From Halobacteria archaeon HArc-gm2 (GTDB taxonomy: Archaea > Halobacteriota > Halobacteria > Halobacteriales > Haloarculaceae): a DNA stretch of 64,000 nt. The position numbers and the translations under genes were made by a program. The notes under the pieces were generated by a model. It made no database searches. It was not told the DNA's origin and saw only the letters and a list, made by a program, of their open reading frames with translations. Below, in pieces: positions 23,495 through 27,736 of the stretch; position 1 is the stretch's first letter, and the number at the start of each line of letters is the position of its first letter. The stretch is taken from positions 558,001 through 622,000 of the forward strand of contig JAOPKE010000001.1 in assembly GCA_025517465.1 (NCBI GenBank), in the 5' to 3' direction.

Positions 23495-23694
23495 GTGCGT
23501 GAGCACACCGCTACGAGCGGAGCGAGTAGCGGTTTCATTTCTCGCGAGACGCGGAGCGTCGAGCGAGAAGGAAGTTTGGAGACTAACGTTTACGAGGAGT
23601 GGTTCCCGCAGCGAACGAAGTGAGCGAGGAAACGCGACGTGGTTCGACAGAGCGAAGCTCTCTCGTCATCACGAAAATCGCTTCGCGATTTTCG
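23495..23694. repeat. Intergenic hairpin array A
   Basis: Non-coding region between pyrI (ends 23716) and the thiC promoter. Perfect hairpins: 23495-23506 (gtgc/gcac, GTGA loop); 23507-23533 (accgctac/gtagcggt); 23539-23569 (ttctcgc/gcgagaa, with facing ga/ga, inner gacgc/gcgtc and gga loop); 23649-23661 (agagc/gctct, gaa loop); 23672-23694 (cgaaaatcgc/gcgattttcg, ttc loop). It also holds module copy 1 at 23587-23634. On the minus strand it would be transcribed as the 3' flank of pyrBI. Confidence 0.8.
23587..23634 (-). repeat. Shared ~48-nt module, copy 1
   Basis: On the minus strand: GTTTCCTCGC, then TCACTTCGTT, CGCTGCGGGAA, CCA, CTCCTCG, TAAACG. It aligns with 26476-26524 at both ends and in the core; differences cluster in the hairpin and a 1-3-nt linker. 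Confidence 0.7.
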
Positions 23695-23715
23695 AACGAA
23701 AGAAAAGTTTAGTCG

Positions 23716-24177
23716 CTAGTTGGCCAGGATGTGCGCCGGGAGGTCCTCACGGATGATGGTGTCACAGTACTCACAGCGGACGCCGTCGTCGAGGACGGTG
23801 AACGCGGACTCCACCGGTTCGTCCTCGGTCGTGATGCAGTTGTGGTTGGGACACTGTAGCACGCCGACGACGCGGTCGGGGTGGTTGACGTGCTTCTTCT
23901 CGACGACGTCGAAGTCGCGGACGATGTTGATCGAGGCGGCGGGTGCGATGAGCGAGAGGACGTCGAGTTCCTCCTCGGAAAGTTCCCGGCCCTCGACTTT
24001 GACGATGTCCTTGTGGCCGAGCTGGTCCGAGGGGACGTTCATGACCACGGAGACGGTTTCACCCTCGGTCCCGTCGATGCCGAGGATGGCCAGGACGTTC
24101 AGCGCCTGGCCGCCGGTGATGTGGTCGATGACGGTGCCGTTCTCGATCTTGCTGACGCGGAGCTTTCGGTCTGTCAT
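23716..24177 (-). CDS. pyrI: Aspartate carbamoyltransferase regulatory chain
   Basis: Binds nucleotide effectors and tunes PyrB. 153 aa. N-terminal allosteric domain ([28 protein letters not shown]) and C-terminal zinc domain with four Cys: CPNHNC (about 109, 114) and CEYC (about 138, 141). Its start overlaps the pyrB stop by 4 bp, so it is the second gene of the pyrBI operon. Hairpin array A follows its stop. Confidence 0.97.
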
Positions 24178-25088
24178 CGTTCTCCCTCCAGGACCATGTC
24201 GAGTATCGCCATGCGGACCGGGACGCCGTTGTGGGCCTGCTGGAAGTACTTCGCGTGCTCGGTGGCGTCGATCTCGTGGTCGATCTCGTCCACGCGCGGG
24301 AGCGGGTGCATCACGGTGAGGTCGTCTTTCGCGTCCGCGAGCGTGCCGGCGTCGATTTGATACTCGCCGGCCACTTCCCGGTACTCGCTCTCGTCGGGGA
24401 ACCGCTCGGCCTGGATGCGAGTCACGTAGAGGACGTCGAGTTCCGAGAGGACTGGCTCCAGCGAGGTATGCTCGCGTACGTCCGCACCGGCCTCGTGCAG
24501 GTCGTAGCGGACCGACCGGGGGAGTTCCAGGCTCTCCGGGCTCACGAAGTGCTGGCGCGCGTCGAATTCCGTGAGCGCGTGGGCGAGCGAGTGGACGGTT
24601 CGGCCGTACTTCAGGTCGCCCATGATACCGATCTTCAGGTCGTCGAAGCCGGCGTTCTCCCGGATGGTGTAGAGGTCGAGCAGCGTCTGGGTCGGGTGCT
24701 GGCCGGCGCCGTCGCCGGCGTTGATGAGCGGCACGTCGACGTAGTCGCTGGCCATCTTCGCCGACCCCTCGCTGGGGTGGCGCAGGACGAGCGCGTCGGC
24801 GTACCCCTCGACGACGCGAACGGTGTCGGCCAGGGACTCGCCCTTCTTCACAGACGAGGACTCGACGGTACCCATGTCGACGACTTCACCGCCGAGGCGC
24901 TTCATCGCGGCGGTGAAACTCATCTTCGTTCGCGTACTCGGCTCGAAGAAGAGCAGCCCCAGCAAGGCGTCGTCGTGGCGGTCCGCGAACGCGCCCGGGT
25001 CGGCGGCGATGTCGGCAGCGCGGTCCAGCACCTCTTCGATGTCCGATCGAGAGAGCTGTTTGGCGCTGATAATGTGGTCCTGGCGCAT
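24174..25088 (-). CDS. pyrB: Aspartate carbamoyltransferase catalytic chain
   Basis: Second step of pyrimidine synthesis: carbamoyl phosphate plus aspartate to carbamoyl aspartate. 304 aa; start ATG at 25088. The carbamoyl-phosphate motif [12 protein letters not shown] (47-58), catalytic [27 protein letters not shown] and HPLPRVDEI are all present. First gene of the operon with pyrI (4-bp overlap). Divergent from the MinD-like gene. Confidence 0.97.
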
Positions 25089-25170
25089 TGGGTAGAGTCC
25101 CGCCCCCGATGGCCTTGAATCTCCCGACACGCCACGAACATTCAAAGGGGAAGACGGGGCCAGAGCGCCC

Positions 25171-25797
25171 ATGATCGCTGTGGCCGGTGGCAAAGGCGGC
25201 TGTGGTAAGACCACCACGACGGCGTGCCTCGCCCGCGCGCTCGCGACCGCGGGTACGAACCCTGTCGTGGTCGACGCCGACGTGGGAATGCCCGACCTGC
25301 ACGTCGTCGCGGGCGCCCGTCTCGACGCCGGACTCGCTGCCCTCGCGAGCGGGGCTCCCATCAGTGAGGCGGTCCAGTCGACGCTCGAACTTCCGGGCGT
25401 GCGTCTCGTCGCGAATAGCCCCGAACCGTCGGACGACCTGGCCACAGCCCTCGACCGCCTGCAGACGCTTGCCGACCCGGTTCTGGTCGACACCGCCGCC
25501 GGCGCGTCGCCGGCCGTGGCGACACCCCTGCGGGCCGCCGACGCCACTATCGTAGTCTCGACGCCGACGACCCAGAGCCTGGAAGATGCGGCCAAGACCG
25601 CGGCGATGGCTCGGACGCTCGACGCGCCGGTCGTGGGTAGCGTCGTCACGAGGAGCGACGGCTCCGTGGATCCGGGGCGGCTCCTGGATTGCCCGACCCT
25701 CGGCCACGTTCCGTCCGTCTCTGAACCCCTCGCCGACGAACGTGTTCGGGCCGCGTACGCGGATGTTTGTGAGTGTCTCCCCAAGCGGAATATTTAA
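25171..25797 (+). CDS. MinD/ParA-like P-loop ATPase
   Basis: 208 aa. Deviant Walker [12 protein letters not shown] (about residues 6-16) with the signature Lys, Walker A' [12 protein letters not shown], and the VDTAAGASP and [11 protein letters not shown] switch-like segments. It belongs to the Min/Par family that positions cellular structures; no amphipathic membrane-targeting helix is evident at the C-terminus. The KaiC-like gene begins 30 bp downstream on the same strand, so the two form a likely functional pair. Confidence 0.9.
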
Positions 25798-25798
25798 T
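25791..25798 (+). promoter_or_regulatory. TATA box (tatttaat) inside the end of the minD-like gene
   Basis: Centred about 32 bp before the ATG at 25827, so the KaiC-like gene probably also has its own promoter. Confidence 0.6.
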
Positions 25799-25826
25799 CA
25801 GTTGCAGAATAGTGAGTCTCCACGGG

Positions 25827-26456
25827 ATGGCTAATCGGCTGCGGACTGGGATCGACGTCCTCGACAGGAAACTCGACGGTGGGATACCAGCTGGTAGCAT
25901 CGTCGCTCTCAGCGCGTCGCCGGCCAGCCAGGCGGAACTGTTCCTCTACGAACTCACCGCGACGCGCGGAACCCTGTGGCTCTCGCTGGATCGTACCGCC
26001 GAGGCGGTCCAGTACAGCATCGAGAACACGCCTGCCAACACGGGCGACCCGACGGTGCGCCACATCTCCGGCGAGGCCCCGCTCGACAACGCGGGTAAAC
26101 TCGTCAGTGCGCTCCCAGAGACCTCGAACCTCATTCTGGACCCGGTCGACGTCCTCGAGGCCCAGGAGCCCCACTCGCGGTACCGCGCGTTCATGAACGA
26201 CCTCCAGAACCACATCTTCAATACGGGCAGTCTCGCCATTCTTCACAGCCTCGACGGCCACGAGGTTCCGCCGCTGCGAGACACGACCGAACACTTCGCG
26301 GACGTCGTCTTCCAGCTGGATACCGGCGTGACGGGCGACGAGATCGTGAACAAGCTCTCGATCCCGAAATTCCGGGGCGGCCGCGCGCCCGGCGACGTCA
26401 TCAAGCTGAACCTCGTCGAAGAGGTCAGCATCGACACCTCCCGCGACATCGCCTGA
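25827..26456 (+). CDS. KaiC/RecA-like protein without a P-loop
   Basis: 209 aa. The N-terminus RLRTGIDVLDRKLDGGIPAGSIVAL is classic KaiC/RadA-type, but the following Walker A position reads SASPASQAELFL, with no GK[ST]. The Walker B-like strand NLILDPVDVLE is kept. A C-terminal DNA/partner region (LSIPKFRGGRAPGDVIKLNL) matches haloarchaeal RecA-superfamily proteins often annotated HTR-like or DUF7125. It probably cannot bind ATP normally. Follows the MinD-like gene by 30 bp. Confidence 0.85.
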   Translation: MANRLRTGIDVLDRKLDGGIPAGSIVALSASPASQAELFLYELTATRGTLWLSLDRTAEAVQYSIENTPANTGDPTVRHISGEAPLDNAGKLVSALPETSNLILDPVDVLEAQEPHSRYRAFMNDLQNHIFNTGSLAILHSLDGHEVPPLRDTTEHFADVVFQLDTGVTGDEIVNKLSIPKFRGGRAPGDVIKLNLVEEVSIDTSRDIA

Positions 26457-26461
26457 CGACC

Positions 26462-26466
26462 TTTTT
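26462..26466 (+). terminator. T-tract after KaiC-like gene
   Basis: TTTTT just 5 bp after the stop, typical of archaeal U-rich termination; hairpin array B follows. Confidence 0.5.
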
Positions 26467-26475
26467 CTTCGTCGG

Positions 26476-26524
26476 GTTTCCTCGCGAGCCTTCGGCTCGC
26501 TGCGGGAAGGCTCCTCGAAAAACG
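26476..26524 (+). repeat. Shared ~48-nt module, copy 2
   Basis: Plus strand: GTTTCCTCGC, GAGCCTTCGGCT, CGCTGCGGGAA, GG, CTCCTCG, AAAAACG. Same order as copy 1 at 23587-23634. Confidence 0.7.
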
Positions 26525-26659
26525 TCCTCAGAAGTGCTTCGCACTTCTGATGGGCTGCGTCAGAGCTTCGCTCTGACGAACGTCGGGGAAAAAGTCCCGG
26601 ACGTCTCGCTCACTTCGTTCGCTCGCGTCCGGTGAAACGGCTCGCTTCGCTCGCCGTAT
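26484..26659. repeat. Intergenic hairpin array B
   Basis: Between the KaiC-like gene (+) and the convergent FKBP gene (-). Perfect hairpins: 26484-26500 (gcgagcc/ggctcgc, ttc loop), 26528-26550 (tcagaagtgc/gcacttctga, ttc loop), 26558-26578 (cgtcagagc/gctctgacg, ttc loop), 26597-26632 (ccggacg/cgtccgg around ctcgctcacttcgttcgct), and an imperfect one at about 26637-26657 (acggc/gccgt). Holds module copy 2 at 26476-26524. Confidence 0.8.
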
Positions 26660-26719
26660 GCTTGCTGTCGCTCGTTCTTCGAGTAACTGAACTGGTGAAA
26701 AGACGAACGGGCTAACCGA

Positions 26720-27736
26720 TTACTCTTCCTGAGCGCCTTCGATCTCTTCCATGATCTCGTCGGCGTCGACGTCGGCGTCTTCGAGTGCAGCCTCGATGTC
26801 TTCGCCGCCTGCGCCGCCGCCCATCATCCCGCCCATGCCGCCCATCATACCGCCCATACCGCCGCCGATCTCCTCCTGGACGATGATGCGGTCGATGTCG
26901 AGGATCTGGGTGAGCTGCTGAGCGATCTGCTGTTTGCCCATCATCCACTGCTGGTTCATGGTGAGCTGCGGGGTCGCCTCGATGTAGAGCGTCTCCTTCT
27001 CGACTTCGACGGTCTCGAACTCGGGCTCGGTGTCTTCGTCGTCGTCCTCGTCGGGTTCGACCATCTGTTCTTCCTCGACGGTGTCGGTGTCGAACCAGAC
27101 GTCGAGTTCCATGTCGAGGAACATGCTGATGAGGCCCTGGGCCTTCTCCTCTCGGTCCTCGACCTCGCGGAGGATGTCGTACTCGTACTCGATGTCCTCG
27201 CCGGCCAGCGGGTGGTTGAAGTCGACGCGCGCGCGGCCGCCGATGATAGTCTCGACGTGACCGTGCTCGCCGCCGACGTCGACGTGGGCACCGGGGTAGC
27301 GGTCGTCTTCCGGAATCTTGTCCTTCGAGATAGTGCGCACTTCGCTCTCGTCGTACTCGCCGAAGGCCTCCTCGGCAGAGACGGTCACGGTACCGCTGTC
27401 GTCGGCTTCCTTGCCGTAGATGTCCGCCTCGACGGCCTCGAAGAGGTGGCCCTGGCCGAGGACGATGGTGCGCGGGGCGAACTCCTGGTCCTCGCCGACG
27501 CCTTCCTCTTCGGCCACTTCGGGGTGGGTCGTGTCGACCAGGTCGTCGCCCTCGGCGGTCCGTGCCGTGTAGTCCAGTTCGACGAAGTCGCCCTCCTGGA
27601 GCCCTCCTTCGGGGGTTTCTTCTTCGGTTGCTTCTTCCTGGGCGGTCTCCTCATCGGCCTCGGTGTCCTGTGCTTCGGTCTCGTCGACTTCCTGTTCTTC
27701 GACGTCGGCCTCCTCGGCCTCGGAGTCGTTGCTCAT
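26720..27736 (-). CDS. FKBP/SlyD-type peptidyl-prolyl isomerase with Met/Gly-rich tail
   Basis: 338 aa cytoplasmic foldase. Acidic N-terminal ~45 residues (EEADVEEQEVDETEAQDTEA), FKBP core (GDFVELDYTARTAEGDD, PRTIVLGQGHLFEAVE), SlyD-type inserted flap (about 105-205, ISKDKIPEDDRYPG, NHPLAGEDIEYEYDI), then an archaeal C-terminal domain and a tail GGGMGGMMGGMGGMMGGGAGG. Minus-strand box at 27761-27767. The Met/Gly tail resembles chaperonin C-termini. Confidence 0.93.
   Translation of the reverse strand: MSNDSEAEEADVEEQEVDETEAQDTEADEETAQEEATEEETPEGGLQEGDFVELDYTARTAEGDDLVDTTHPEVAEEEGVGEDQEFAPRTIVLGQGHLFEAVEADIYGKEADDSGTVTVSAEEAFGEYDESEVRTISKDKIPEDDRYPGAHVDVGGEHGHVETIIGGRARVDFNHPLAGEDIEYEYDILREVEDREEKAQGLISMFLDMELDVWFDTDTVEEEQMVEPDEDDDEDTEPEFETVEVEKETLYIEATPQLTMNQQWMMGKQQIAQQLTQILDIDRIIVQEEIGGGMGGMMGGMGGMMGGGAGGEDIEAALEDADVDADEIMEEIEGAQEE

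Follow-up and report, generated by a model that had tools for sequence, protein, structure and literature searches.

The hairpins in the gap between a KaiC-like gene and a convergent FKBP-like gene represent one copy (26455-26664) of a mosaic element that is dispersed through haloarchaeal genomes. Positions refer to the window, which is the whole stretch of 64,000 nucleotides of Halobacteria archaeon HArc-gm2 that was analysed. Copies of the element contain fixed boxes between hairpins of differing letters, and they are placed at gene ends. Judged from sequence features, the element probably works like a bidirectional terminator and an insulator between transcription units, in a REP/BIME-like manner.

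Genes were called throughout with a purpose-made Markov caller. The two genes flanking the gap (Table 1), which by the look of their sequences we take to be KaiC-like and FKBP-like, respectively, lie tail to tail, as the initial annotation had stated. The KaiC-like protein marks the window as haloarchaeal, being up to 89% identical to Haloarcula proteins. The initial annotation had also described at least four perfect stems of 7-10 bp, three of them with TTC loops, and a perfect-stem search together with reading of the sequence recovered them. Three TTC-loop stems of 7, 10, and 9 bp are present (Table 1). The fourth, read from the sequence, is a 7-bp stem in which 26597-26603 pairs with 26626-26632 and closes an imperfect hairpin. 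The span first given (26484-26659) does contain hairpins, but the element is wider and extends to about 26455-26664.

The initial annotation had itself raised the concern that these stems might be GC-rich palindromes at the background rate. The window has a GC content of 66%, and stems with other loops are frequent inside genes. The window contains four TTC- or GAA-triloop stems of at least 7 bp, three in this gap and one in a first array near 23.7 kb, as compared to a mean of 0.25 per window in simulated windows of the same dinucleotide make-up (5 stems altogether in 20 windows). Hairpins of all types with loops of 3-8 showed a mild excess (77 vs. 36-63 simulated). In 464 kb of the chromosome, 8 of 10 triloop stems were intergenic, and called genes make up 86% of the bases. 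The folding z-scores of the gap were -4.8 on the + strand and -4.1 on the - strand, with none of 200 shuffles as low. These results, with the homologous copies elsewhere and the covariation presented below, contradict a chance origin, which we consider next to impossible. The hairpins are real and above background.

Architecture and covariation of the element

Table 1. Features of the KaiC-FKBP gap and of the first array (window positions)
Feature	Position	Strand	Basis or remark
KaiC-like gene, upstream neighbour	25827..26456	+	gene calling
Block A, long hairpin (5' arm with T5, 3' arm with A5)	26455..26529	+	model R1 match, covariation
T5 tract followed by C, putative + terminator	26462..26466	+	sequence; 5 nt past KaiC-like stop
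Apical hairpin of block A, 7 bp, TTC loop	26484..26500	+	stem search
A5 on + (T5 on -), predicted second T5 for FKBP-side transcript	26518..26522	-	sequence
Nested element C1, double hairpin	26523..26584	+	stems 26528-26550 (10 bp) and 26558-26578 (9 bp), linker GATGGGCTGC
Block B, two more hairpins	26586..26664	+	profile match and sequence
A5 on + (T5 on -), predicted first T5 for convergent transcript	26589..26593	-	sequence; behind hairpins 3 and 2
FKBP-like gene, convergent neighbour	26720..27736	-	gene calling
First array, second element copy, inverted	23502..23643	-	profile matches and R1 match
Nested element C2, GTTC-hairpin-GTGATGAC-hairpin-GAAC	23641..23698	-	interrupts block A of first array

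A BLAST search of the genome with the gap as query gave 27 matches, self counted. The element consists of two blocks. Block A has conserved internal loops and a variable apical hairpin, and its order is CCTTTTTC-TTCGTCG-GGGTTTCC-hairpin-GGGAACC-nCTCCTC-GAAAAACG. In the window copy, the second GGGAACC box reads GGGAAGG, and the block overlaps the stop codon of the KaiC-like gene (26454-26456). R1, a covariance model built for block A from 17 copies in this genome, matched the window copy at contig positions 584455-584529 with E 3.2e-15; because the window copy is in the training set, this value, like those of the other training copies, is circular. Block B of the window copy is made of GGGGAAAAAG, hairpin 2 (26597-26632), GTGAAAC, hairpin 3 (26637-26657), and GTATGCTTG, and the block reads GAAAAAG-hairpin 2-GTGAAAC-hairpin 3-GTATGCTTG. 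The block B profile matched 26583-26664 with E 8e-20, again with the window copy in the training set. An alternative A core within the same arms was found in own copies L046 and L038 and in G006, the nearest relative, at the L165 site, where G006 has the same block B and a different A core (A-core exchange).

The stems are thus not one set of like hairpins, as the term "hairpin array" had suggested. A uniform array is rejected because two of the four stems belong to the smaller element C1 (62 nt), nested at the junction of blocks A and B. The A-B junction of own copy L029 (identical with L167) has no C1. With an E limit of 1, C1-like sequences were found on 22 plasmid records, every one of which has a haloarchaeal name, and a longer query matched 10 of these records at E below 0.001. 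One C1 copy (L247, 2501-2566) lies within a transposase-annotated gene beside an IS200/IS605 tnpA gene on a Salinigranum marinum plasmid. This is an insertion site and not a derivation of C1 from IS605. Another copy sits within a FAD-binding oxidoreductase gene.

The first array (23502-23698) is a damaged, inverted copy of the same element, with C2 nested in its block A. Both a remnant of block A (23582-23643) and a part resembling block B (23502-23568) are recognizable in it, and R1 matched it at contig positions 581592-581643 with E 6.5e-7. C2 represents a second double-hairpin type, found in 14 rows (L266-L279) from this genome in intergenic-looking sequence. A spurious open reading frame, 23499-23756 (RSGSRSERSERG), runs through the first array.

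In the 17 own copies of block A, 93.3% of cells were paired and 14 of 23 pairs were changed on both sides, with none of 500 shuffles as high. The second set contained 93 distinct copies (from our genome, from G006, and, mostly as single copies, from further genomes), in an alignment that was fitted to the model; here 17 of 21 pairs were changed on both sides, with 227 such cells vs. a shuffled mean of 65. The covariation of the stems, including the T5/A5 stem, and the internal loops conserved across genera point to a maintained structure. Rfam release 15 gave for 601 bases round the window copy a best listed E of 1.6, with all hits below the gathering score, and for 20 element loci nothing at the gathering score except two tRNAs. 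Membership in a known RNA family was therefore rejected. A segment of L160 (972-1057) matched the mir-5880 model on both strands below the gathering score and is probably merely another long inverted repeat.

The wobble cells of block A comprised 66 G-T and 33 A-C; 55 of the 66 G-T cells came from one pair, so no single strand is picked out and a DNA-level structure is possible. The element might then be a cruciform or protein-binding site acting in chromatin, topology, or recombination rather than a transcribed terminator. The long inverted repeats and the operon inversion with ends in two arrays (see below) agree with such a site, as does this lack of strand preference. However, T5 keeps a fixed distance from stop codons and tRNA ends, as expected of a transcript end and not of a topological site, and we regard a purely DNA-level function as unlikely.

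Distribution and position at gene ends

R1 matched at least 31 places in its own genome and was found in at least 52 of 59 genomes of the order (Halobacteriales), own included, with at least 43 matches in the richest genome. These counts are lower bounds, since at most 150 of several thousand first-look candidates were scored in each genome. Of 120 sampled genomes of the phylum, at least 13 (own included) had R1 matches. All 13 belong to the order, and among the matches listed none came from sampled genomes outside it. All 16 named species chosen through their loci, among them members of the genera Haloarcula, Halosimplex, Halorientalis, Halorhabdus, Natronomonas, Halovenus, Salinibaculum, Haloglomus, Halorarius, and Halostella, carry from at least 2 to at least 43 matches per genome. 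Halosimplex aquaticum, Halorientalis marina, and Haloarcula amylovorans are copy-rich examples, with at least 31 to at least 43 matches. A phage collection gave no match to the window copy at the sensitivity used. In the open-access papers searched, we found no description of the block A/B element.

The position of block A was examined at 59 loci, 30 own and 29 from relatives (one per genome). It overlapped a called gene at none of them. The T5 edge lies 2-9 nt past a stop codon at 18 loci, at a tRNA 3' end at 6, next to a direct repeat, in most cases a copy of the 3' end of the adjacent gene, at 22, and 12-64 nt upstream of a gene reading away at 7; 6 loci belong to none of these four classes. 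The tRNA-end and direct-repeat labels were assigned by hand from the separate results for each, and the upstream class is defined by distance only (45-49 nt in five loci, 64 and 12 nt in two). T5C is thus beside a stop or tRNA end at 24 of 59 loci and not at the other 35; for comparison, TTTT begins within 12 nt of the stop in 17 of 417 called genes. The 30 own copies have 12 convergent, 16 tandem, and 2 divergent contexts, and convergent gaps account for 17% of intergenic bases in the 464 kb. At L213 and L215, a tRNA 3'-end-like fragment directly precedes block A, with a called tRNA on the same strand about 90-125 nt further upstream.

The covarying T5...A5 hairpin, its intergenic location, and the T5 tracts on both strands support the terminator reading. 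In the available text of a study of Haloferax volcanii (PMC7237163), intergenic termination sites are a T stretch with a conserved TC, and reporter termination was 95% for a T stretch and 59% for one hairpin. The window copy likewise carries, shortly behind a gene, a T stretch whose next letter is C. We postulate that the + transcript would end at T5C (26462-26467), 5 nt past the KaiC-like stop, and that the convergent FKBP transcript would pass hairpins 3 and 2 and end at the T5 tracts 26593-26589 and 26522-26518. The hairpins may sharpen or protect the transcript ends. As repeats, the copies may also serve as recombination substrates and as landing sites for the smaller nested hairpin elements. 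By a crude test, a second A run was present behind block A at 52 of 59 loci, and a long perfect stem followed closely at 11 of 59, by a test that misses imperfect hairpins of the block B type. Against termination as the function count the small number of such stems, the 35 of 59 loci with T5 away from a stop or tRNA end, and the fact that the genome has at least 31 matches, so that the majority of genes do without the element.

The gap had at first been proposed to fit either bidirectional termination or a mobile intergenic element. The features behind both halves are present, namely T5 on both strands at gene ends and copies that are dispersed, gained, and lost; termination and transposition themselves are putative. 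The two halves are compatible and neither excludes the other.

Turnover, gene-end duplication and inversion

Element copies come and go at orthologous sites, including between close relatives. Comparison of the KaiC-FKBP gap across species gave block A and B profile matches in Haloarcula amylovorans, Halosimplex salinum, Halosimplex aquaticum, and Halorientalis marina, a B-like piece only in Haloarcula salina, and no profile match in Haloarcula amylolytica, mannanilytica, pellucida, vallismortis, argentinensis, and japonica. On visual inspection, a short A-like hairpin follows the stop in Halorientalis persicus, and Halorientalis regularis has none there. At L167, the gene is 98% identical in G006, where the stop is followed after a few nt by the T tract CCCTTTTC and no element. 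At the same site, genomes G001, G003, and G004 carry variant elements directly behind the T tract, G002 has an element slightly further down, and G005 has a plain T5. In G006, the gene end is single at L182 and L161, and our genome has two copies there with block A between them; an older A-like remnant lies further out at L161 in both genomes. Other own copies, for example L162, L173, L174, L176, and L181, align straight through the G006 copy at the same place.

These comparisons bear on the rival idea of a selfish mobile repeat, a haloarchaeal counterpart of REP/BIME, PATE, or SMR, which survives only at gene ends, inserts at the host's own terminator (T5), and adds nothing. The retention of the T tract after the same stop in G006 without the element, the plain T5 in G005, the gain or loss of copies at L182 and L161, and the smaller nested elements are in its favour. 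However, the maintained structure indicated by covariation and by the conserved internal loops points the other way, and no terminal repeat or fixed target duplication was identified. We find it doubtful that the element is purely selfish.

Direct repeats flank block A at 22 of 59 loci, such as L161, L162, L182, L183, and L200, when 150 nt before block A is compared with 500 nt after it. Their scores range from 49 to 234, as compared to a 99th percentile of 33 and a maximum of 53 in 354 control comparisons; L164, L196, and L213 do not exceed the control maximum. The repeat joins within 6 nt of the block A edge in all 22 loci and reaches into the end of a gene called converging in 19, the exceptions being L213, L214, and L215. 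The repeats are long, differ at each locus, and are mostly the 3' end of the neighbouring gene; no transposon ends were identified. Some repeat-flanked loci keep an older A or B further out. In G006, a 41-residue FKBP end adjoins block A matches near the FKBP gene.

The gene-end repeats fit a template switch at the hairpin that duplicates the end in tandem, and they also fit an insertion that leaves a long target duplication. At L182, the single gene end in G006 is less likely to stem from a deletion between the direct repeats, because the left context retained in G006 is that of the gene-side repeat and not that of the outer one. A diversity-generating retroelement was dropped as a candidate because mismatches between repeats are not confined to adenines. 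Tentatively, the element may spread by a copying step that carries the gene 3' end, with the copies then flipping the operons they bracket. A new A-B unit with a fresh copy of the gene end would be set into the coding end and the old end left outside. If so, terminators, gene ends, and local gene order would evolve together.

Two inverted copies bracket pyrI-pyrB-minD-kaiC in the window (23582-26530). In G006 (L228, L236, L239), this block is reversed relative to the window, with ends in both arrays. Where pyrI meets fkbp in G006, the inner segment (hairpin 2) agrees with the first array of the window at 38 of 41 positions, and the outer segment (hairpin 3 plus the FKBP flank) agrees with the second array at 78 of 90. 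This split suggests that a crossover took place in block B, near its GTGAAAC box. The kaiC-thiC junction does not discriminate (29/35 and 23/29 inside, 61/73 and 60/72 outside). Among the six genus relatives, pyrI is next to FKBP in five and the sixth is undecided, which makes the order in the window exceptional within its genus. The neighbour of FKBP in 30 FKBP loci is kaiC in 12, pyrI in 6, and undecided in 12; among 80 KaiC loci, which share some genomes with the FKBP set, FKBP has kaiC beside it in 36 and pyrI in 4, with 40 undecided. From the presence of both gene orders in several groups we infer more than one flip.

Comparison with known terminators and repeats

Archaeal terminators are usually described as unrelated T stretches; the element would be a homologous, structured, dispersed gene-end element spread order-wide. 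With such an element, termination, the insulation of convergent genes, and the evolution of 3' ends could be tested at tens of loci in each genome, and the element offers a concrete substrate for the local inversions that shuffle haloarchaeal gene order. As far as the available text of PMC7237163 goes, the element resembles the T-stretch terminators of Haloferax volcanii in having a T stretch with TC in an intergenic 3' region, and hairpins occur there near 503 termination sites. Unlike those terminators, the T5 here is an arm of a repeated, homologous, covarying structure, present on both strands and across genera.

The organization is also analogous to that of bacterial REP/BIME mosaics and Haloquadratum repeats, the likeness to PATE and SMR being by description. 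In the accessible portions of PMC3733652 and PMC12306157, REP/BIME are dispersed palindromic intergenic units in mosaics, mostly between convergent or unidirectional genes. Our element likewise has at least 31 matches, none in genes at 59 loci, and exchange of A cores and nested units. It differs from what those portions describe in that block A is longer (about 60-80 nt), has T5/A5 arms and conserved internal loops, and abuts stops and tRNA ends. REP/BIME units have a GTAG or CGTC tag at one end; the 10 C1 rows inspected start with CGTC, an observation that concerns the nested element and makes a tag of this kind at most tentative. The PATE and SMR of Haloquadratum walsbyi are, in the available text of PMC3119063, haloarchaeal palindrome-bearing repeats that are transposase-free, and the SMR-A type (about 110 bp) inserts into palindromes that belong to other elements, a habit shared by C1 and C2. 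They are described there in one species, with PATE tied to IS605-type transposons and SMR defined by terminal inverted repeats. If an order-wide gene-end element holds, it would be an archaeal counterpart to the bacterial REP/BIME repeats.
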